The translations under genes were made by a program, and so were the position numbers. A stretch of DNA of 36,915 bases from a virus, in IMG/VR virus record IMGVR_UViG_3300048672_000664, positions 1 to 36,915 of that record; one strand, written 5' to 3'. The notes under the pieces were generated by a model. That model made no database searches. It was not told the DNA's origin and saw only the letters and a list, made by a program, of their open reading frames with translations. Of this stretch, positions 8,981 to 34,706 are shown in pieces. Position 1 is the first letter of the stretch. Every line of letters starts with the position of its first letter.

Positions 8981-9008
8981 GCCCTGTGAAGTTAACAGGG
9001 CGTTTTTT
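8981..9008 (+). terminator. Rho-independent terminator closing the early rightward operon
   Basis: GCCCTGT (8981-8987) pairs with ACAGGGC (8995-9001) around a seven-base loop, followed by G and six T (9003-9008). It lies 13 bases after the stop of the gene at 8779-8967 and separates the early genes from the accessory cassette, which would then need its own promoter. Confidence 0.88.
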
Positions 9009-9060: not shown

Positions 9061-9420
9061 ATGATCGATATAAACGAATTAACATTTGGACAACTGAAAG
9101 AAATACGTTCATTAATGCCTGATTTACCTAAAGAAGAAAAGCCTCACCCATTTGTTGGCAAGTTCTGTATTGCACGAGCATATTCAGAAGGAGTGCACGC
9201 CGGGTTTGTCGTGTCAGTTGACAATGACACGTGCATACTAAGGGATAGCCGCAGACTTCATTCATGGAAGGGCACTGGTGTTGCGCTTTCAGGAGTCGCC
9301 AATGGCGAACTAATTTCTGGAAATGTCGACACGATTAACCCTGAAATCTACATAACAGGGTTATGTTCACTAATTCCATGCACAGAAAAAGCCATGAAGT
9401 CTATTTATGAAAAAAAATAA
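9061..9420 (+). CDS. Phage hypothetical protein, DUF6948-like (119 aa)
   Basis: The 119-residue protein starts behind TAGGAG. Residues 28-60 (HPFVGKFCIARAYSEGVHAG then FVVSVDNDTCILRDSRRLHSW) form a small beta domain reminiscent of the DUF6948 group seen in phage accessory regions. It ends with the conserved-looking LIPCTEKAMKSI. There is no signal peptide or membrane helix. It opens the accessory cassette and its last 14 bases overlap the Gly-rich repeat gene. The family comparison is from memory and is tentative. Biochemical function is unknown. Confidence 0.5.
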   Translation: MIDINELTFGQLKEIRSLMPDLPKEEKPHPFVGKFCIARAYSEGVHAGFVVSVDNDTCILRDSRRLHSWKGTGVALSGVANGELISGNVDTINPEIYITGLCSLIPCTEKAMKSIYEKK

Positions 9421-9724
9421 CTATCAAATGATTTATGGCTCTGGAACTGGCTCTGGCAATGGCTCTGGCTCTGGCGATGGATATGGCTCTGGCTATGGCT
9501 CTGGCTATGGCTCTGGCGATGGCGATGGATATGGTTCTGGCTATGGCTCTGGCAATGGCTCTGGCTCTGGCGATGGATATGGTTCTGGCTATGGCTCTGG
9601 CTCTGGCGATGGCGATGGCTATGGCTATGGCGATGGATATGGTTCTGGCTATGGCTCTGGCGATGGCGATGGCTATGGCTATGGCGATGGCGATGGTTCT
9701 GGCGATGGCTATGGAACTGGTTAG
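9407..9724 (+). CDS. Gly/Ser/Asp/Tyr hexapeptide-type repeat protein (105 aa)
   Basis: ATG 9407 lies within the end of the preceding gene. After a short unique leader (MKKNNYQMIYGSG) the whole protein alternates Gly with Ser, Asp, Tyr or Asn (YGSGYGSGDGDGYG). It has no hydrophobic core, so it should be disordered or form an extended Gly-rich structure. The leader recurs in the broken copy at 9742, which argues that this reading frame, not the Ala/Met/Leu frame at 9435, is the one under selection. Function is unknown. A sticky surface or linker protein is possible. Confidence 0.55.
   Translation: MKKNNYQMIYGSGTGSGNGSGSGDGYGSGYGSGYGSGDGDGYGSGYGSGNGSGSGDGYGSGYGSGSGDGDGYGYGDGYGSGYGSGDGDGYGYGDGDGSGDGYGTG
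9432..9722. repeat. Hexanucleotide minisatellite (GGCTCT/GGCTAT/GGCGAT)
   Basis: About 290 bases consist of near-perfect hexamers of the form GGCKMT or GGATAT, nearly 50 units without interruption. Because the unit is a multiple of three, every plus-strand frame stays open or nearly so. Longer blocks are repeated (for example GATATGGTTCTGGCTATGG near 9527, 9574 and 9634), which shows recent internal duplication. Such tracts change length by slippage in whole codon pairs, so protein length can vary without frameshift. Confidence 0.9.
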
Positions 9725-9741
9725 TACCTATGGTTATAGGT

Positions 9742-9975
9742 ATGAAAAATAAATATCAAATAATTTATGGTTCTGTCCCAAGCTATTATGGTGGTGGTGA
9801 TGGTGCAGGGTATGGCTATTATAACGGAGCTGAGTCTGGACAGGGGTAGTCATCTGGTTCTGGCTGTGGTGACGTCTGCAGCTATGATTATGGAAGAGCT
9901 TCTGGAGTCGTGTCTGGATATTGGTCTTGATTTGGTTACGGAAGTGGCTATGGACGTGAAAAAAGTAATTATTAA
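9742..9975 (+). pseudogene. Decayed second copy of the Gly-rich repeat gene
   Basis: The frame from ATG 9742 begins MKNKYQIIYGS, matching the MKKNNYQMIYGS leader of the gene at 9407. It continues Gly/Tyr/Ser-rich through TAG at 9847-9849 and TGA at 9928-9930 to TAA at 9973-9975 (ending FGYGSGYGREKSNY). Between the stops the composition stays Gly/Ser/Tyr-rich, so the stops interrupt a once-continuous gene. Only 35 residues can be made from it. The codon pattern has drifted from hexamers, so this is the older or relaxed copy. Readthrough of both stops is a less likely alternative. Confidence 0.6.
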
Positions 9976-9994
9976 CAACAACTAAGGAAACAAA

Positions 9995-10672
9995 ATGAAA
10001 AGACAATCAAACAATCTCATCGTATTCGCAATTTTCTGGTGCGTAATATTTTTGCTTTTAGTCACAAATCACATTGCAAACGCATCAGAGCGTGAGCATG
10101 AAAGGGGAGATAACAATGCGTCAACGATTTCTAATGCTACCGCACAAAGTTCGTCTTGGGCTGTTGGCGGCAACTCTTCTTTGCATTCTACCATTGGTGT
10201 TAGTGTTGGCGGTTCTAACGCTACTGCAATTAGCGGACCACAGTATAGTAGCAGCGGCGCTTCAATGGGAGAAATAAAAAACGATTCAGCGGGCGGCAAC
10301 GTCCAGATACAAGGCAACAAATACCCAAATCAGGCGCCGACGATATTCAGTACCAGCGCGCCTTCATACAGTCAACGAAACTGCACACCCGTTGGCAGCG
10401 TCAATGCATCAGGCCCGCTTGGTGGGTTAGGGTTTGCATTCCCGATGGGAGGTGATGTCTGCAATGGCTTGAACGAATCCGATAAAATTGCAGAGTGGGA
10501 AAGAGAGTCAGGTGATGCCAAGCTTTGGTTGGTGCAATGTAACCTGATGATACAGAAAGATTCTGATTTGGCTGATGCATTTGAAGACTCCGGCTATAGC
10601 TGTAAAGACGCATATATCAAGCGCCAAGCTGATGCCAACGCCCGCGCAAAAATGAGCTTGCTACAACACTAA
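9995..10672 (+). CDS. Exported or membrane-anchored cysteine-containing protein (225 aa)
   Basis: The start follows AAGGA (9985-9989). Residues 1-30 are a basic tip and a hydrophobic segment (LIVFAIFWCVIFLLLVTNHIANA) that acts as a signal peptide or anchor, with possible cleavage after ANA. Residues 35-120 are low-complexity Ser/Gly/Asn/Ala, and 125-225 form a compact part with four cysteines (CTPVG, DVCNG, VQCN, YSCKD) that could make two disulfides in the periplasm. No family is recognised. It lies between two repeat genes in the accessory cassette, and export with disulfides suggests a role at the host envelope. Confidence 0.6.
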   Translation: MKRQSNNLIVFAIFWCVIFLLLVTNHIANASEREHERGDNNASTISNATAQSSSWAVGGNSSLHSTIGVSVGGSNATAISGPQYSSSGASMGEIKNDSAGGNVQIQGNKYPNQAPTIFSTSAPSYSQRNCTPVGSVNASGPLGGLGFAFPMGGDVCNGLNESDKIAEWERESGDAKLWLVQCNLMIQKDSDLADAFEDSGYSCKDAYIKRQADANARAKMSLLQH

Positions 10673-10717
10673 TCACATAACAGAACAGGAATGTTCATAT
10701 TTTGGAGAAATAAACAA

Positions 10718-11455
10718 ATGAAAATTAAATTCGCTGCAATTTTAGATATTGAATTAGCGCTGAAGGCTGTTGAAAGCAATGGATATGCCTTGCAATACGT
10801 CAAAGACCAGACAGAAGCTATATGTTTAAAGGCTGTTGAAAGAAATAGCTATGCCTTGCAATACGTCAAAGACCAGACAGAAGCTATATGTTTAAAGGCT
10901 GTTGAAAATGAAGGCTGTGCCTTGCAATACGTCAAAGACCAGACTGAAGCTATATGTTTGAAGGCTGTTGAAAGAAATGGCTGTGCCTTGCAATACGTCA
11001 AAGACCAGACTGAAGCTATATGTTTGAAGGCTGTTGAAAGAAATGGATATTCCTTGCAATACGTTAAAGACCAGACTGAAGCTATATGTTTGAAGGCTGT
11101 TGAAAGCAATGGATATGCCTTGCAATACGTCAAAGACCAGACAGAAGCTATATGTTTAAAGGCTGTTGAAAGAAATAGCTATGCCTTGCAATACGTCAAA
11201 GACCAGACAGAAGCTATATGTTTAAAGGCTGTTGAAAGAAATAGCTATGCCTTGCGATACGTCAAAGACCAGACTGAAGCTATATGTTTGAAGGCTGTTG
11301 AAAATGAAGGCTGTGCCTTGCAATACGTCAAAGACCAGACTGAAGCTATATGTTTGAAGGCTGTTGAAAGAAATGGCTATGCCTTACAGTTCGTATTGAT
11401 AAAAGATATTTTTATTAAAATTGCTAAGCAATTAAATATTAAAGTGGAGATTTAA
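10718..11455 (+). CDS. DUF4116-like tandem repeat protein (245 aa)
   Basis: I start at ATG 10718, with TTTGGAG about ten bases upstream; an in-frame ATG at 10691 has none. After MKIKFAAILDIELAL the protein is ten 22-residue units of the form KAVERNGYALQYVKDQTEAI (each with Cys-Leu joining to the next), followed by a short tail. The unit matches the DUF4116 type of helical repeat, with Leu/Val/Tyr at fixed positions forming an alpha solenoid. DUF4116 repeats occur in bacterial effectors and large viruses, with unknown ligands. No signal peptide is seen. Near-identity of units at DNA level shows recent expansion. It precedes the subtilisin-like gene by one base. Confidence 0.7.
   Translation: MKIKFAAILDIELALKAVESNGYALQYVKDQTEAICLKAVERNSYALQYVKDQTEAICLKAVENEGCALQYVKDQTEAICLKAVERNGCALQYVKDQTEAICLKAVERNGYSLQYVKDQTEAICLKAVESNGYALQYVKDQTEAICLKAVERNSYALQYVKDQTEAICLKAVERNSYALRYVKDQTEAICLKAVENEGCALQYVKDQTEAICLKAVERNGYALQFVLIKDIFIKIAKQLNIKVEI
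10763..11391. repeat. Ten 66-bp tandem repeats with a 330-bp higher-order duplication
   Basis: AAGGCTGTTGAA recurs exactly every 66 bases from 10763 to 11357. Units 1 and 6, and 2 and 7, appear identical, and units 3 and 9 share the unusual NEGC variant. The array therefore looks like a five-unit block copied once and then adjusted by gain of unit 8. Such long identities are prone to recombination and to assembly collapse. Confidence 0.9.
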
Positions 11456-11456
11456 A

Positions 11457-13037
11457 ATGCTCATGAAAAAAATACTATTTTTAGTTTTAACGTTAATGAC
11501 AAACATAACGCTGGCGTCAAATGGGTTTTATGTCATTAATAAATGCGATAGTCAGTCGTTTTTAAACGCGTTGAATACGCGTGGATTTAAAACATTGGAT
11601 ATCGATGCCAATAAAACATATGCAAAGATTGACCATGTTAATGCCAAAGGTCAGGTTACCTGGGGACCATCAATCACGGCTCATAACGCACTGTTGGTAA
11701 AAACGAATGGGAATGCCAATAAAACAGCCTTCCTGACGTTTGTAGGTAATGTAAAAAAATACATTGAGTCCGATAGCTGCCTAAAATATGCCGGATTTGA
11801 TGCAGTGATACAAGATCAAGCTGCCGATCTAAGCTGGGGTGTTGATTTGAAAGCACTGGGACATTCTGTCGATCATGCCAATTTAACGGCTGCATTACTG
11901 AAAAATGATGATAAGCGGCCTATTGTTTTATTGCCGGACACCAATATTTTTATCAATCAATTAGTCCCAGACTCGCTATATAGCGTTGATGTCGTCGCGT
12001 CAGGTGATCCAGCATGCAAAGTACTCATGGAAGAAACTAAAAACATGGCAACATCTACGCACGCTACTATTTTAGCCAATGGAATGACATTGACTAGCAA
12101 TAACGTTGCTGTACGTAATATCGTGACGCACTGTAAAGGGAATTTTACGAAACCAGATATTCTGAATGCGTCATTGCAAAAAGCAATTCTATTTTGCAAA
12201 CAGGGGGAAAACTGCGTATTGAACAAAAGCAATGATTCGTACTATGGCAATAGTCTGGAAACCAGCCAAATTCTGTATTCTGCATACAATCGTGGAATAC
12301 CAGTCATACAGAGCATTTTCAACGATTACAGAATTACAACCGATTACGACTACGAAAAACACGTCATTCGTGTAGGGTCATACCTGGAAGATGCTCAGCT
12401 TGTATATGGAACAGTAGGTAATTCTGGCCCGGACATAGTAGTACCGACAACTCAAACAGGATTAACACCAGCATGGTTTAACCCTGTAAAGAATAAAATG
12501 GTTTACACTAAACAGTTAAATATTGGTAATAGCTTGTCAACTGCACTGGTTAGCTCAATTGTAGCCACTATGATGGATCAATGCCGGCTGGCATCAAACG
12601 GTGACAAGAAACTGACACCGGATGAAGTAAAAGATATTTTAAATAGAACTGCTAAAAAGATACCTATTTTACCTGAAAGAATAGCGAATAAAGCATTAGC
12701 CGCTAAGAATATATTTAAAAATTCACGTAATAAATATGTTCGCGGTGGCATTATTCAACCGACACAGGCCATTTTAGAAACTCAAGGTTTTTGTAAATCA
12801 ACTAAACCTGTTGAGCCTATAGGTCATTGTGTTCCATCTAAGACCGATATTTCCTTATCAGAATGTATTGCATTTGAAGAGGATTGGTTAAAACGACTCG
12901 GGATAACAACCGCGAATGTACGTATATTCGATGGAGGTCCGCAACCACCCTGGGCTAGTCATTATTGGTGGTATATATACGATGCTCCGTTAGCTCATGT
13001 GTTTGGTAAGTCAGATGGGTTATGGTGGACTGAATAA
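11457..13037 (+). CDS. Secreted subtilisin-like (S8 family) serine peptidase homologue (526 aa)
   Basis: A signal peptide (MLMKKILFLVLTLMTNITLA) opens the protein, behind GGAG. The subtilase signature is present though divergent: VLLPDTNIF (Asp161), STHATILANG (His202), RGIPVIQSIFND (Asn289, oxyanion), and GNSLSTALVSSIVATMM (Ser359), followed by LTPDEVKDILNRTAKKI. Spacings D-H 41, H-N 87 and N-S 70 match subtilisin (32, 91, 66) well. The glycines of the usual HGTH and GTSMA boxes are partly lost, so activity is uncertain. An N-terminal domain (20-140) and an aromatic C-terminus (WYIYDAPLAHVFGKSDGLWW) flank the core. Eight or more cysteines fit a periplasmic life. An unusual phage gene, perhaps altering the host surface. 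Confidence 0.65.
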   Translation: MLMKKILFLVLTLMTNITLASNGFYVINKCDSQSFLNALNTRGFKTLDIDANKTYAKIDHVNAKGQVTWGPSITAHNALLVKTNGNANKTAFLTFVGNVKKYIESDSCLKYAGFDAVIQDQAADLSWGVDLKALGHSVDHANLTAALLKNDDKRPIVLLPDTNIFINQLVPDSLYSVDVVASGDPACKVLMEETKNMATSTHATILANGMTLTSNNVAVRNIVTHCKGNFTKPDILNASLQKAILFCKQGENCVLNKSNDSYYGNSLETSQILYSAYNRGIPVIQSIFNDYRITTDYDYEKHVIRVGSYLEDAQLVYGTVGNSGPDIVVPTTQTGLTPAWFNPVKNKMVYTKQLNIGNSLSTALVSSIVATMMDQCRLASNGDKKLTPDEVKDILNRTAKKIPILPERIANKALAAKNIFKNSRNKYVRGGIIQPTQAILETQGFCKSTKPVEPIGHCVPSKTDISLSECIAFEEDWLKRLGITTANVRIFDGGPQPPWASHYWWYIYDAPLAHVFGKSDGLWWTE

Positions 13038-13076
13038 TTATTTAGAATAAATAATAGCACGCTTCCTTTTTAAATG
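13038..13076. repeat. Direct repeat, copy A (orphan 3' end of the gene at 13391)
   Basis: Bases 13038-13076 match 13391-13429 at 35 of 39 positions, including a perfect 21-base start that contains the palindrome TTATTTAGAATAAATAA. Read leftward, this copy encodes HLKRKRAIIYSK and a stop, the same end as the gene at 13391-13948 (HIKRKRAIIYSK). It is therefore a stranded gene terminus left on the far side of an inserted segment. It directly follows the subtilisin-like gene. Confidence 0.75.
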
Positions 13077-13103
13077 TAGATAAAATGACACGAGAACAAA
13101 AAA

Positions 13104-13346
13104 ATGCCATACGTAAGAAGTAACAGCACATATTTTGTTTGGCCTTTTTCAATGCACGCAAAAATAGCAAGAGGGGGAAAAATTAATAGAGATGAAGTCT
13201 TACAAACGTTATCAGATGCCAAGCACATTTATGATGGTCATTCTGAGTTATTAGCAGAAATTCAGACGCTTAAAAATGACATTCATAAGCTTAAAATTGA
13301 GAATGCTTTTATGCTAAGACTTATAGAAAATAAAGAGGATAAATAA
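13104..13346 (+). CDS. Small hypothetical protein with coiled-coil C-terminus (80 aa)
   Basis: The 80-residue product begins MPYVRSNSTYFVWPFSMHAK. Residues 38-78 (LSDAKHIYDGHSELLAEIQT and LKNDIHKLKIENAFMLRLIE) have the heptad pattern of a coiled coil. The ribosome binding site is poor (GAGAAC upstream), so it may be coupled or weakly expressed. It lies alone between the two copies of the 39-base direct repeat, which marks it as part of an inserted segment. No family is recognised. Confidence 0.5.
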   Translation: MPYVRSNSTYFVWPFSMHAKIARGGKINRDEVLQTLSDAKHIYDGHSELLAEIQTLKNDIHKLKIENAFMLRLIENKEDK

Positions 13347-13390: not shown

Positions 13391-13429
13391 TTATTTAGAA
13401 TAAATAATAGCCCGTTTTCTTTTTATATG
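13391..13429. repeat. Direct repeat, copy B (native 3' end of the late operon)
   Basis: This is the partner of 13038-13076 and forms the last 12 codons and stop of the leftward gene 13391-13948. Its inner palindrome TTATTTAGAATAAATAA (13391-13407) sits where rightward and leftward transcription meet. The stem is pure A/T, so it would be only a weak terminator. Confidence 0.7.
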
Positions 13430-14041: not shown

Positions 14042-14557
14042 TCATTCACAAATTACATTAGGTTGTTTGCATAGCTGTTCAGCCACTTTTATTTTTGCTT
14101 CGATGTCGGCAACGTTGAGCTGGTCGCGTCGGATTTGGGATTCAATAAACGCTCGAAATTCTGGGCTAAATCCGGCTTCATATCGGGTGGTGCCGTACGC
14201 GCCAGTTTTGGAATTACGATCTTGGGGCACTCTGTCTGTACCACTGCCCCGACATAAGGCGTTCTCGCGCACGCTGTTGCGCTCAAGATGCACAGGAGCA
14301 GACTTAATTTCATTGACCTTGGCATTGTAGTTATCCTGTATAAAAGTGGCATAGGCGTTAGATTCTGCGGTTTTTGTTGCAGCCTCTAATTTTGATTCGT
14401 TAAGCACTTTTTCAGCCTCCTTAGCTTGTGCCAATAACTGTGTTTCATACCGTTTTGAAGCGCGCTGGTATCCGTTGTTATCTATCGCATAAACGATTGA
14501 ACTGAATACAGCAATAATTAATACCCATTTAGCCAGGGCTGCATATTCACCGAACAT
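14042..14557 (-). CDS. Rz: Rz-like inner-membrane spanin (171 aa)
   Basis: Residues 6-26 (AALAKWVLIIAVFSSIVYAI) form the N-terminal anchor. They are followed by a long periplasmic helix rich in Lys, Glu, Ala and Gln (30-85) and a C-terminal helical part with cysteines near the end. This is the layout of an i-spanin, which links to an outer-membrane lipoprotein and fuses the two membranes in the last step of lysis. The decisive support is the lipoprotein frame nested within it (14089-14325). The start overlaps the upstream membrane-protein gene by 11 bases. Confidence 0.8.
   Translation of the reverse strand: MFGEYAALAKWVLIIAVFSSIVYAIDNNGYQRASKRYETQLLAQAKEAEKVLNESKLEAATKTAESNAYATFIQDNYNAKVNEIKSAPVHLERNSVRENALCRGSGTDRVPQDRNSKTGAYGTTRYEAGFSPEFRAFIESQIRRDQLNVADIEAKIKVAEQLCKQPNVICE
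14089..14325 (-). CDS. Rz1: Rz1-like outer-membrane spanin lipoprotein nested in Rz (78 aa)
   Basis: The frame lies wholly inside Rz in another reading frame. I start at ATG 14325 (behind CAGGATAAC); ATG 14313 (behind AAGG) is nearly as good. The N-terminus MPRSMKLSLLLCILSATAC is a lipoprotein signal ending in the lipobox ATA-Cys, and the mature part is Pro-rich (CPKIVIPKLARTAPPDMKP). Embedded Rz1 genes of this kind are well known from lambda and P2 relatives. Its presence shows that the phage infects a host with an outer membrane. Confidence 0.8.
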   Translation of the reverse strand: MPRSMKLSLLLCILSATACARTPYVGAVVQTECPKIVIPKLARTAPPDMKPDLAQNFERLLNPKSDATSSTLPTSKQK

Positions 14558-15020: not shown

Positions 15021-15235
15021 AACTGAATAATTGTTCCATCCCAATCTGCTGGTATTGATCCACCATATCCTGATAAATAACCAGAACTGATCAAATCATG
15101 ATTTCTCATTTTTATGATGCTGTTAGGGTGCTTTTCCTGGGCTTCATGCAAAGCTTTTCTGTCATCATTAACAAAAACATTTTCTATAAAGTTAAAATCT
15201 ATTGATGATCTTGTTTTGTGATATTCTGATATCAT
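15017..15235 (-). CDS. Small hypothetical protein in the lysis operon (72 aa)
   Basis: The 72-residue product starts in an ATGA overlap with the endolysin stop and ends in another with the next gene. It is polar and mixed-charge, begins MISEYHKTRSSIDFNFIENV and ends with a Gly/Ser/Asp-rich segment (SSGYLSGYGGSIPADWDG). No membrane span or known motif is seen. Its constant coupling to the endolysin suggests a minor part in lysis or its timing, which is inference. Confidence 0.5.
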   Translation of the reverse strand: MISEYHKTRSSIDFNFIENVFVNDDRKALHEAQEKHPNSIIKMRNHDLISSGYLSGYGGSIPADWDGTIIQL

Positions 15236-15783
15236 TTCATCAGCTCTTTAGCTTTTTCCCAATATGCCAAACGCTGTGGTTGCCCATTTAGTCCACCATT
15301 GATCCTGCGTGTTATCGCGCCAAACTCTCCAGCATCAGCCAGTTCGTTTAATCCGTGTGTTTCCCAAAATGCACCGGCAATTCGAAACGCGAAAACATGT
15401 GATTCAGCAAGTTGCGGATGTATGATGAAATCGACACCCAGGATTTTTCCGAACTTGGCATAGTTTGAACGTCCGGTTAACTGTATAGCTCCACGACCTT
15501 TAAATTTCTCGCCATCTCCTGGCTCTATGTTTCCTAATTGTTCAGCGAGTTTTGAACCGCTAAAAGGCTCATATTTTTTCTGCTGTGCAGTTGGCCCCCA
15601 AATCTCACGCATCCATTTGAACTCACCTGTTTCATGCGCTATTTGAGCGATAAACGCCGTCTGCCTTGCGTAATTATCAATATGAAACTCTGTCATTGCC
15701 GCATTGATAAACGGCAGATACAAATCAATCTTGTCATCTGGACAGGATGAACAAATTGCTCTTAATATGGGTTTCGTAATCAT
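15232..15783 (-). CDS. GH19-family endolysin (183 aa)
   Basis: This is a lysozyme of the chitinase class-I (GH19) fold. QTAFIAQIAHETGEFKWMRE (residues 41-60) carries the catalytic Glu51 in the HET signature. KYEPFSGSKLAEQLGN and GDGEKFKGRGAIQLTGRSNY (about residue 104 on) are the conserved substrate-cleft boxes. It cleaves the glycan strands of peptidoglycan after the holin releases it. There is no signal peptide, so holin-dependent export is expected. It starts in an ATGA overlap with the gene upstream. Length is typical for a stand-alone phage GH19 domain. Confidence 0.9.
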   Translation of the reverse strand: MITKPILRAICSSCPDDKIDLYLPFINAAMTEFHIDNYARQTAFIAQIAHETGEFKWMREIWGPTAQQKKYEPFSGSKLAEQLGNIEPGDGEKFKGRGAIQLTGRSNYAKFGKILGVDFIIHPQLAESHVFAFRIAGAFWETHGLNELADAGEFGAITRRINGGLNGQPQRLAYWEKAKELMK

Positions 15784-32716: not shown

Positions 32717-33448
32717 CTAAACTGCAATTCTTTTTAAATTCAATGACCTATATAGATCACTAAAATCAAATTCTTCAATTTTTTCTGGTTCGGGTTCAGG
32801 CTCTGTCTGTTTATCTTCAATAATGGGCGCGTGAAGATAAGCGGATAAATCCCATTTTATCGTATTCTTTACAGTTGCCTCAGCAATTGCTCCGATAAAC
32901 CCAGCATCAACAGCCTCTTGACCGTATAAATACGTTTCAGCATCCATCATAGCCTTGATTTCATCAGACGGTTTGTTCGTTTTTGCAACGTAGTCGTTCA
33001 AAATGGACTGGTCTGTTTTTTCTAACAAGTCCGCTAATTCAAGAAAATCACTTGCATTTCCAGCGCCGAATGTCCAAGCATTATGAATCATAAACATACC
33101 GCCATTGCTGATTACTGACTCATCAGCCGCAATAACTGGAAATGTCGCTGCACTGGCAGCCACACCATCAACATGGGCAATAATCTTACTGGGATGTTCT
33201 TTAATCGCTTGAGACATTGCCCGAGCTGCGAATACATCACCGCCTGGGCTGTTTATTCTCAAATGGATAATAGGCTGAGTTAACGCATTGAGTTCTTTAA
33301 CGAAATCAATCGCACTAACACCGCCGAAAAATGAATCAGAAACAATGGCATCGTATAAATAAATAGTAGCGTCAGTTTCGTTTTTGTTCTCCACATAAAA
33401 AGAGCCTTTGCCCTTATTAAGTGCTAGAAGTTGCTGTAGTTGGTGCAT
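32717..33448 (-). CDS. ClpP-like head maturation protease (243 aa)
   Basis: I start at ATG 33448 (MHQLQQLLALNKGKG), which has CAGGT eight bases upstream and overlaps the portal gene by 32 bases; the frame is open up to 33490. The ClpP-type catalytic pair is clear: VDGVAASAATFP with Ser99, and MFMIHNAWTFG with His122; RINSPGGDVFAARAM (64-78) is the conserved beta-turn. The enzyme removes scaffold segments from capsid subunits before expansion. A C-terminal tail (TEPEPEPEKIEEFDF) is acidic. Standard position between portal and capsid genes. Confidence 0.9.
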   Translation of the reverse strand: MHQLQQLLALNKGKGSFYVENKNETDATIYLYDAIVSDSFFGGVSAIDFVKELNALTQPIIHLRINSPGGDVFAARAMSQAIKEHPSKIIAHVDGVAASAATFPVIAADESVISNGGMFMIHNAWTFGAGNASDFLELADLLEKTDQSILNDYVAKTNKPSDEIKAMMDAETYLYGQEAVDAGFIGAIAEATVKNTIKWDLSAYLHAPIIEDKQTEPEPEPEKIEEFDFSDLYRSLNLKRIAV

Positions 33449-34706
33449 TGTCAGTACCTGCCGGTATCGATTCGCTTTTGCGCAAACCATCGTTCAAAAC
33501 GTCCCCGCCATCGATCGGCGGCATATTTTCTATCTTGCGTATTTCGTTAACTGTCATCCATCCAGGCTCACCCGCTCTGCCTAGGCCAACCCTATAGCCC
33601 TCATTTCGTGTTTTATAGTCACCGCGCTCAAGCCCTGCTGTCTGGAACTCGACAAAATATTTTGTCTGAACAGGCCATAATTTACGATTAAGCTCTTGTT
33701 CAATTTTTGTCAGATGCCTTGCCAGAGTATATTTAACAAATGCGATACTCATTTGCTCGATACCAGTCCCCCATGCCGTTGCGCTTGAACTGCCAATCAT
33801 GTGAGACGGAACACCAAATATACGCGCTATATCCTCAACCTGAAATTGTCGTGTTGCTAAAAGCTGACTATCCTCTGCCGACATCGTAAGCTCGTGAACC
33901 TTCGCGCCGCCGGTTAATAATACCGGCTTGTGTGATTTTTCAACACCTTGATAGCGGTCAGACCACGAATTTCGCATCATGTCTTGCTGTTCTGGATTTG
34001 GATTTCCTTGCACCTCTATAGCGAAGTCAGGGCGCGCTCCGTTCTCAAAAAAAGCAGCACTGTACTTATCGGCAGCCAATGAAATAGAGGCTGCGTGGCG
34101 CAATACCCACTTGATTTGAGACATCCCATGTAGACCATTAAATCCAGGACCTGGAACATGGATCATGTCAGATGCCGGAATTGTATAAACAGATTTTGAA
34201 CGTGATGTGTCGTTTATTTTGTAAAGTAAATTACCTTCACTATCTCTAACAACCGTAACAAAGCGAGGATTAATCCATTCTATGCTTTTGATATCAAAGA
34301 CTTTATTGGATTTGCGCTTAATCTCTGCGAAGGCGTCACCATGCAACAGCAATGCCGACAACATGGACTCCCAGAATATAGCCGCGCTGTAATACTCGCA
34401 AGGCTGTTCATTGAGGAGCCAATAGATATTGTTTTGAACCTTGTTTCTTGATTCCGCTGTTCGTTCATAGACTGGCAACGGCAATGACGCTATTGCACCA
34501 CCGATCAGGCTAACGCACGCATAAACACTGCTTACCTGCATTGCGGTTAGTTCAGTTATGAACTGGCCAGCGCTCTGGAATCCTGATGTAAACCAATCTA
34601 CAAATTCGGAAGAAGCAATAGAACCGCTATTTTTTAGCGCAGGCAAGGCATTCTCGATCTCAAAATCGTAACGGCTTTTTTTAGGCGCGCGGTTAAATAG
34701 GCTCAT
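33417..34706 (-). CDS. HK97-family portal protein (429 aa)
   Basis: The protein shows the phage-portal family layout: VSSVYACVSLIGGAIASLPL near 60-80, NEQPCEYYSAAIFWESMLSA, the GFNGLHGMSQI loop and LLATRQFQVEDIARIFGVPS (about 285-305), and a C-terminal tail with AGEPGWMTVNEIRKIENMPP (about 380-400). It makes the twelve-subunit ring through which terminase pumps DNA. It begins 33 bases downstream of the TerL stop, in an AT-rich gap, and its 3' end overlaps the protease gene. Confidence 0.9.
   Translation of the reverse strand: MSLFNRAPKKSRYDFEIENALPALKNSGSIASSEFVDWFTSGFQSAGQFITELTAMQVSSVYACVSLIGGAIASLPLPVYERTAESRNKVQNNIYWLLNEQPCEYYSAAIFWESMLSALLLHGDAFAEIKRKSNKVFDIKSIEWINPRFVTVVRDSEGNLLYKINDTSRSKSVYTIPASDMIHVPGPGFNGLHGMSQIKWVLRHAASISLAADKYSAAFFENGARPDFAIEVQGNPNPEQQDMMRNSWSDRYQGVEKSHKPVLLTGGAKVHELTMSAEDSQLLATRQFQVEDIARIFGVPSHMIGSSSATAWGTGIEQMSIAFVKYTLARHLTKIEQELNRKLWPVQTKYFVEFQTAGLERGDYKTRNEGYRVGLGRAGEPGWMTVNEIRKIENMPPIDGGDVLNDGLRKSESIPAGTDNAPTTATSST

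Follow-up and report, generated by a model that had tools for sequence, protein, structure and literature searches.

The DNA analysed here, referred to as the window, is IMG/VR record IMGVR_UViG_3300048672_000664 (36,915 bases, about 40% G+C), in which no end repeats were found. Its minus strand encodes the small and large terminase, portal, Clp-type protease, capsid, tape measure, and tail-tip proteins; the early genes—AAA ATPase, YqaJ nuclease, and helicase—reside on the plus strand, and the scanned open reading frames (ORFs) contain no integrase. In the lysis region, which also harbors an endolysin gene, a minus-strand ORF with a lipobox (LSATAC) is nested within a 171-codon ORF, an arrangement that looks like an Rz/Rz1 spanin pair. 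Relatives of the terminase at the 57–60% level are found in a Halomonas phage and in contigs of Limnobacter, Comamonadaceae, Sedimenticola, and Nitrosomonas. Together with the spanin-like pair, these relatives point to a Gram-negative host. The nearest relative of the phage is a viral contig of 8.6 kb whose terminase is 88% identical; it is too short to reach the region described below.

An accessory cassette and its S8-like gene

A cassette spanning positions 9061–13346 follows a terminator-like hairpin and abuts the lysis region (Table 1); such hairpins are no more numerous in this region than expected by chance. Its contents include two exported-looking proteins, one of them the S8-like protein and the other an orphan with a signal-like N-terminus, as well as two repeat-rich genes. 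The first of the latter, an ORF at 9407–9724, encodes repeats rich in Gly, Ser, Asp, and Tyr (GSGDGYG...) built from 6-, 12-, and 48-bp units, and an overlapping frame is open as well. A second Gly-rich copy at 9742–9978, with a similar leader (MKNKYQIIYGS) and in-frame TAG and TGA codons, looks like a decayed paralogue. The other repeat-rich gene, of the DUF4116 type, carries about 9.5 near-identical 66-bp tandem units between 10761 and 11385 (92% matches), a sign that the array may have expanded recently or may vary in copy number. This gene ends just before the start codon of the S8-like gene, whose Shine-Dalgarno sequence lies inside it, and the two are therefore probably translated from one message. 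Downstream, a 39-nt direct repeat (13038–13076 and 13391–13429, 90% identical) flanks an ORF of 80 codons at 13104–13346 and could mark the boundary of the cassette.

Table 1. Coordinates of features in the window
Feature	Position	Strand	Basis or remark
Intrinsic-terminator-like stem-loop with T run	8981–9001	+	Between early genes and cassette
DUF6948 protein, first cassette gene	9061–9420	+	PF22253, 3.2e-14
225-aa orphan protein, signal-like N-terminus	9995–10672	+	ORF; same cassette
DUF4116 repeat protein gene, upstream of S8 gene	10691–11455	+	PF13475, 1.3e-55
Shine-Dalgarno-like GTGGAG	11444–11449	+	Sequence; within end of DUF4116 gene
Gene for divergent S8 (subtilase) family protein, 526 aa	11457–13037	+	ORF with ATG start; Pfam PF00082
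Predicted Sec-type signal sequence, residues 1–21	11457–11519	+	Sequence reading; likely cleavage around A20/S21
N-terminal region, residues 22–149	11520–11903	+	Without family match
S8-like catalytic domain, about residues 150–415	11904–12701	+	Pfam, profile score, alignments, model
Asp161, candidate catalytic Asp	11937–11939	+	Alignments; moderate support
His202, candidate catalytic His	12060–12062	+	Alignments; moderate support
Asn289, candidate oxyanion-hole Asn	12321–12323	+	Alignments
Ser359, candidate nucleophile	12531–12533	+	Alignments; start of long helix in model
LTPDEVKDIL helix, residues 386–395	12612–12641	+	Aligned to same element of two subtilases (L163, L266); helix in model
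C-terminal extension, residues 416–526	12702–13034	+	Ends HYWWYIYD...LWWTE; without family match
171-aa ORF	14042–14557		Lysis region; minus-strand lipobox ORF nested at 14089–14352
GH19 endolysin	15232–15783		Lysis region
Clp-type protease gene	32717–33490		Between portal and capsid genes

The N-terminus of the S8-like protein looks like a Sec signal, as the original prediction had proposed: a Lys-rich start leads into a hydrophobic stretch ending in TLA, predicted cleavage would separate MLMKKILFLVLTLMTNITLA from SNG, and hydrophobic peaks fall within residues 1–24. Such a signal would direct export to the periplasm or to the outside of the Gram-negative host, where the ten cysteines of the protein (residues 30, 108, 187, 226, 247, 253, 376, 446, 458, and 470), also anticipated by that prediction, could form disulphides. 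The following region would fit a propeptide in size. Residues 21–108 gave no informative Pfam match, and the Pfam I9 propeptide family matched neither the whole protein nor these residues, leaving room for a divergent propeptide; residues 442–526 had no Pfam match either. The proposed layout thus comprises a signal peptide, an N-terminal region of propeptide size, an S8 domain bearing D161, H202, N289, and S359, and a C-terminal extension.

Relationship to the S8 family

The first piece of evidence for a subtilase relationship is a Pfam match to Peptidase_S8 (PF00082), barely above the gathering cut-off (23.3 versus 21.8 bits; E 4.7e-5 over 24,736 models) and the sole match to this family in the whole record. 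An S8 profile built from 101 subtilase domains, drawn from genomes of bacteria and contigs of viruses, gives the protein 18.8 bits, whereas the best of 2000 shuffled sequences reaches 12.4 and the next 6.4. Among 714 ORFs scoring below 60 bits with this profile, two exceed 50 bits and derive from loci collected on account of subtilases as well as of terminases; the query itself, present twice, accounts for two entries at 18.8, and the rest do not exceed 5.6. When the protein is compared with a viral subtilase (L266) by pairwise BLAST, the match extends over residues 118–404, and D161, H202, the Asn region, and the Ser box each face the corresponding element of L266. Ordinary subtilases in the same set score 100–320 bits, which by this measure places the phage protein far outside the bulk of the family.

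The four candidate residues are present in the 526-aa ORF as originally predicted, and their spacing (41/87/70 in the order D-H-N-S) compares with 32/91/66 in subtilisin BPN'; the distance of 157 between His and Ser lies near the low end of the 158–189 measured between motif starts in 20 ordinary subtilases. When the protein was aligned by MAFFT, unforced, with the 101 subtilase domains, all four residues fell into the catalytic columns, with N256-x-S258, N289, and S359 in register. In an alignment with 58 viral subtilases, the only invariant columns correspond to D161, H202, T204, S258, N289, G357, S359, and V365. A global profile alignment with hhalign, as we read it, also pairs D and H. In one small MAFFT set, D missed its column although H, N, and S were placed, and local hmmalign aligned neither D nor H. 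As a control, residues 100–222 were shuffled and the rest of the sequence was kept; in 10 of the 100 sequences so obtained, D and H both still fell into place. The alignments thus make the assignment of N289 and S359 secure; that of D161 and H202 is likely but not proven, because of this 10% rate.

The same observations bear on the possibility that an orphan secreted protein resembles subtilases by chance. Such a coincidence would be in keeping with the failure to find a full-length homologue, with a local Pfam match that covers only residues 231–401, and with the unsettled Asp/His pairing in hmmalign and in the shuffles. It is nevertheless improbable in view of the Pfam E-value, the separation of the protein from shuffled sequences and unrelated ORFs, and the register of its C-terminal half, where the Ser helix is followed at the right distance by LTPDEVKDIL, the element that had been singled out as typical of the family.

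Structure prediction adds a measure of consistency. AlphaFold run on the single sequence gave no usable model (pLDDT 33). Residues 100–450 modelled on the alignment of 58 viral subtilases adopt the S8 topology (pLDDT 70, pTM 0.75). In it, D161 sits where a strand ends, a helix begins at both H202 and S359, and the long Ser helix is mostly above 90. The matches that Foldseek lists from the PDB for this model comprise subtilases and proteins related to them, either engineered or macrocyclases. Since the subtilase alignment imposes the fold, this model is partly circular and is counted as consistency rather than proof. Taken together, the sequence comparisons support the assignment of the protein as a divergent, putatively exported, phage-borne member of the subtilase family.

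Homologues were sought in several collections. No match was obtained by tblastn in phages and plasmids, by phmmer in the PDB, or by a pattern-plus-tblastn search of IMG/VR and GTDB genomes, which, requiring eight residues to match exactly, would overlook distant relatives. The whole records of 30 terminase-related viruses contain neither an S8 gene nor a homologue. Sister phages did not emerge when the helicase, tail-tip, and 225-aa proteins were used as queries, nor did a viral relative when the search was made with a mixed S8 alignment headed by the protein. Samples of Gammaproteobacteria, Pseudomonadota, the order of a Limnobacter genome, and a Legionellales-like order (via IcmQ) yielded a single match, an ordinary subtilase (L163) that resembles the protein mainly in the Ser region; little follows from the otherwise empty results in these bacterial samples, as no positive is known for this query. 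DUF4116 genes in two other phages adjoin no annotated protease, and the literature searched on phage subtilases offered little of relevance.

The lack of an S8 gene in the 30 terminase-related records might also be expected of a host gene captured recently and of no lasting use to the phage, and the lability of the cassette, evident from its flanking repeats and the decayed Gly-rich paralogue, would be compatible with such an origin. However, the reading frame has stayed open over 526 codons, no bacterial relative appeared in the genomes searched, and the base composition of the gene resembles that of the other genes of this phage, making recent capture very improbable.

Erosion of the active-site boxes and the question of catalysis

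The signatures of ordinary subtilases (D[ST]G, HGTH, and GTSM[AS]xP) are absent from the protein. DTG is replaced by DTN, HGTHVAG by HATILAN, AAGN by SIFN, and GTSMAxPHVAG by GNSLSTALVSS, so that the boxes around His and Ser are degraded just as the original prediction had stated. The near-universal active-site neighbours changed are G163N, G203A, H205I, G208N, G288F, T358N, P363A, H364L, and G367S; the Ser box has lost its Thr, Met, Pro, His, and Gly. This loss counts more against an ordinary active subtilase than against kinship with the S8 family. Among columns conserved at 90% or more, the protein keeps all 4 catalytic positions and 9 of the 26 others, a difference (Fisher p 0.026) that, coming from one sequence and from columns chosen at the 90% level, lends weak support to selective retention of the catalytic residues.

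Two readings of this pattern are close to evenly matched. In the first, which we favour by a narrow margin, the protein would have kept proteolytic activity of the usual Asp-His-Ser type, Asn289 lying in the oxyanion hole. In the second, to which we give appreciable but less than even weight, the protein would no longer be catalytic, and its S8 fold would serve, once exported, as a scaffold for binding some protein of the host envelope or the extracellular space. The change of 17 of the 26 non-catalytic near-invariant columns, including the Ser-box Pro and glycines of the Asp, His, and Asn boxes, speaks for a scaffold, as does the extreme divergence seen in the profile score. There is also a precedent: PIMMS2 of Plasmodium keeps D, H, S, and the oxyanion Asn without HGT and GTS and has been called a probable pseudoenzyme (PMC5520436). 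On the other hand, the retention of the four catalytic residues and of the N-x-S motif amid the loss of their neighbours is easier to understand if they are used. The pattern of loss, close to the one described for PIMMS2, cuts both ways. PIMMS2, for its part, is a eukaryotic surface protein, and the phage protein differs from it in retaining Gly and Ser in its Ser box (GNS) and H-x-T in its His box.

Comparison with known proteins and possible role

Ordinary gammaproteobacterial S8 members (PF00082, MEROPS S8; loci L163, L167, and L175) share with the phage protein the order and spacing of D, H, N, and S, the N-x-S motif, and the succession of a Ser helix and an LTP-type helix. They differ from it in overall sequence, of which only about 15–30% is identical, and in their intact boxes and far higher profile scores. 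A like layout is seen in SprP (PA1242) of Pseudomonas aeruginosa, a chromosomally encoded, active protease of 590 aa with its triad numbered E262/H299/S499 (PMC3937732). Both proteins, of similar size, consist of a signal peptide (predicted for the phage protein), an N-terminal domain of unknown function, an S8 domain, and a C-terminal extension, and SprP demonstrates that this combination can make an active enzyme (PMC3937732).

Phage-encoded S8 domains are rare, as had been suggested, and already known: one S8 query matched 47 of 50,697 phage records, a single canonical Ser-box pattern occurs in 114 stretches among the 2.9 million viral contigs of IMG/VR, and BFVD entries also include phage S8 proteins. 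The S8 genes found in Bacillus phages SP-15, Goe3, and vB_BcoS-136 and in other phages are matched by an ordinary subtilase query; none matches the present protein by tblastn. S8 domains are also found in some phage structural proteins, for example, the baseplate wedge of Synechococcus phage S-SCSM1, which raises the question of a virion or head-maturation protease. Here, this is highly unlikely: the gene has a predicted signal sequence and lies on the strand opposite to the head and tail genes, and no S8 enzyme is needed for head maturation since the place between the portal and capsid genes is taken by a Clp-type protease gene.

Rather than a role in the virion or in replication, an envelope-facing accessory role is suggested because the small cassette adjoins the lysis genes and holds exported-looking proteins. 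Receptor trimming, superinfection exclusion, and help in lysis are guesses, and nothing in the analysis points to a receptor; the evidence does not separate receptor trimming from non-catalytic binding, the two roles offered by the original prediction. For the reading as a whole, in which a Gram-negative phage carries, in an accessory cassette adjoining its lysis genes, the gene for an exported and divergent S8 protein that would act by Asp-His-Ser catalysis and face the envelope, we see the chances as balanced. The kinship with S8 sequences, the residue identities, and the gene context are observed directly, and export, catalysis, substrate, and role are inferred from them. A bolder proposal places the protein in a subfamily of its own, phage-borne, exported, and new among subtilases, where catalysis survives in boxes unlike those of all S8 proteins compared here and acts on the host envelope; this seems to us unlikely.

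One orphan sequence provides this evidence, which limits its weight. An active protein would show how far the boxes of a subtilase can erode with catalysis surviving and would provide an example of an envelope protease that a phage makes in a Gram-negative host; an inactive one would add a phage-encoded pseudo-subtilase for comparison with PIMMS2 of Plasmodium.
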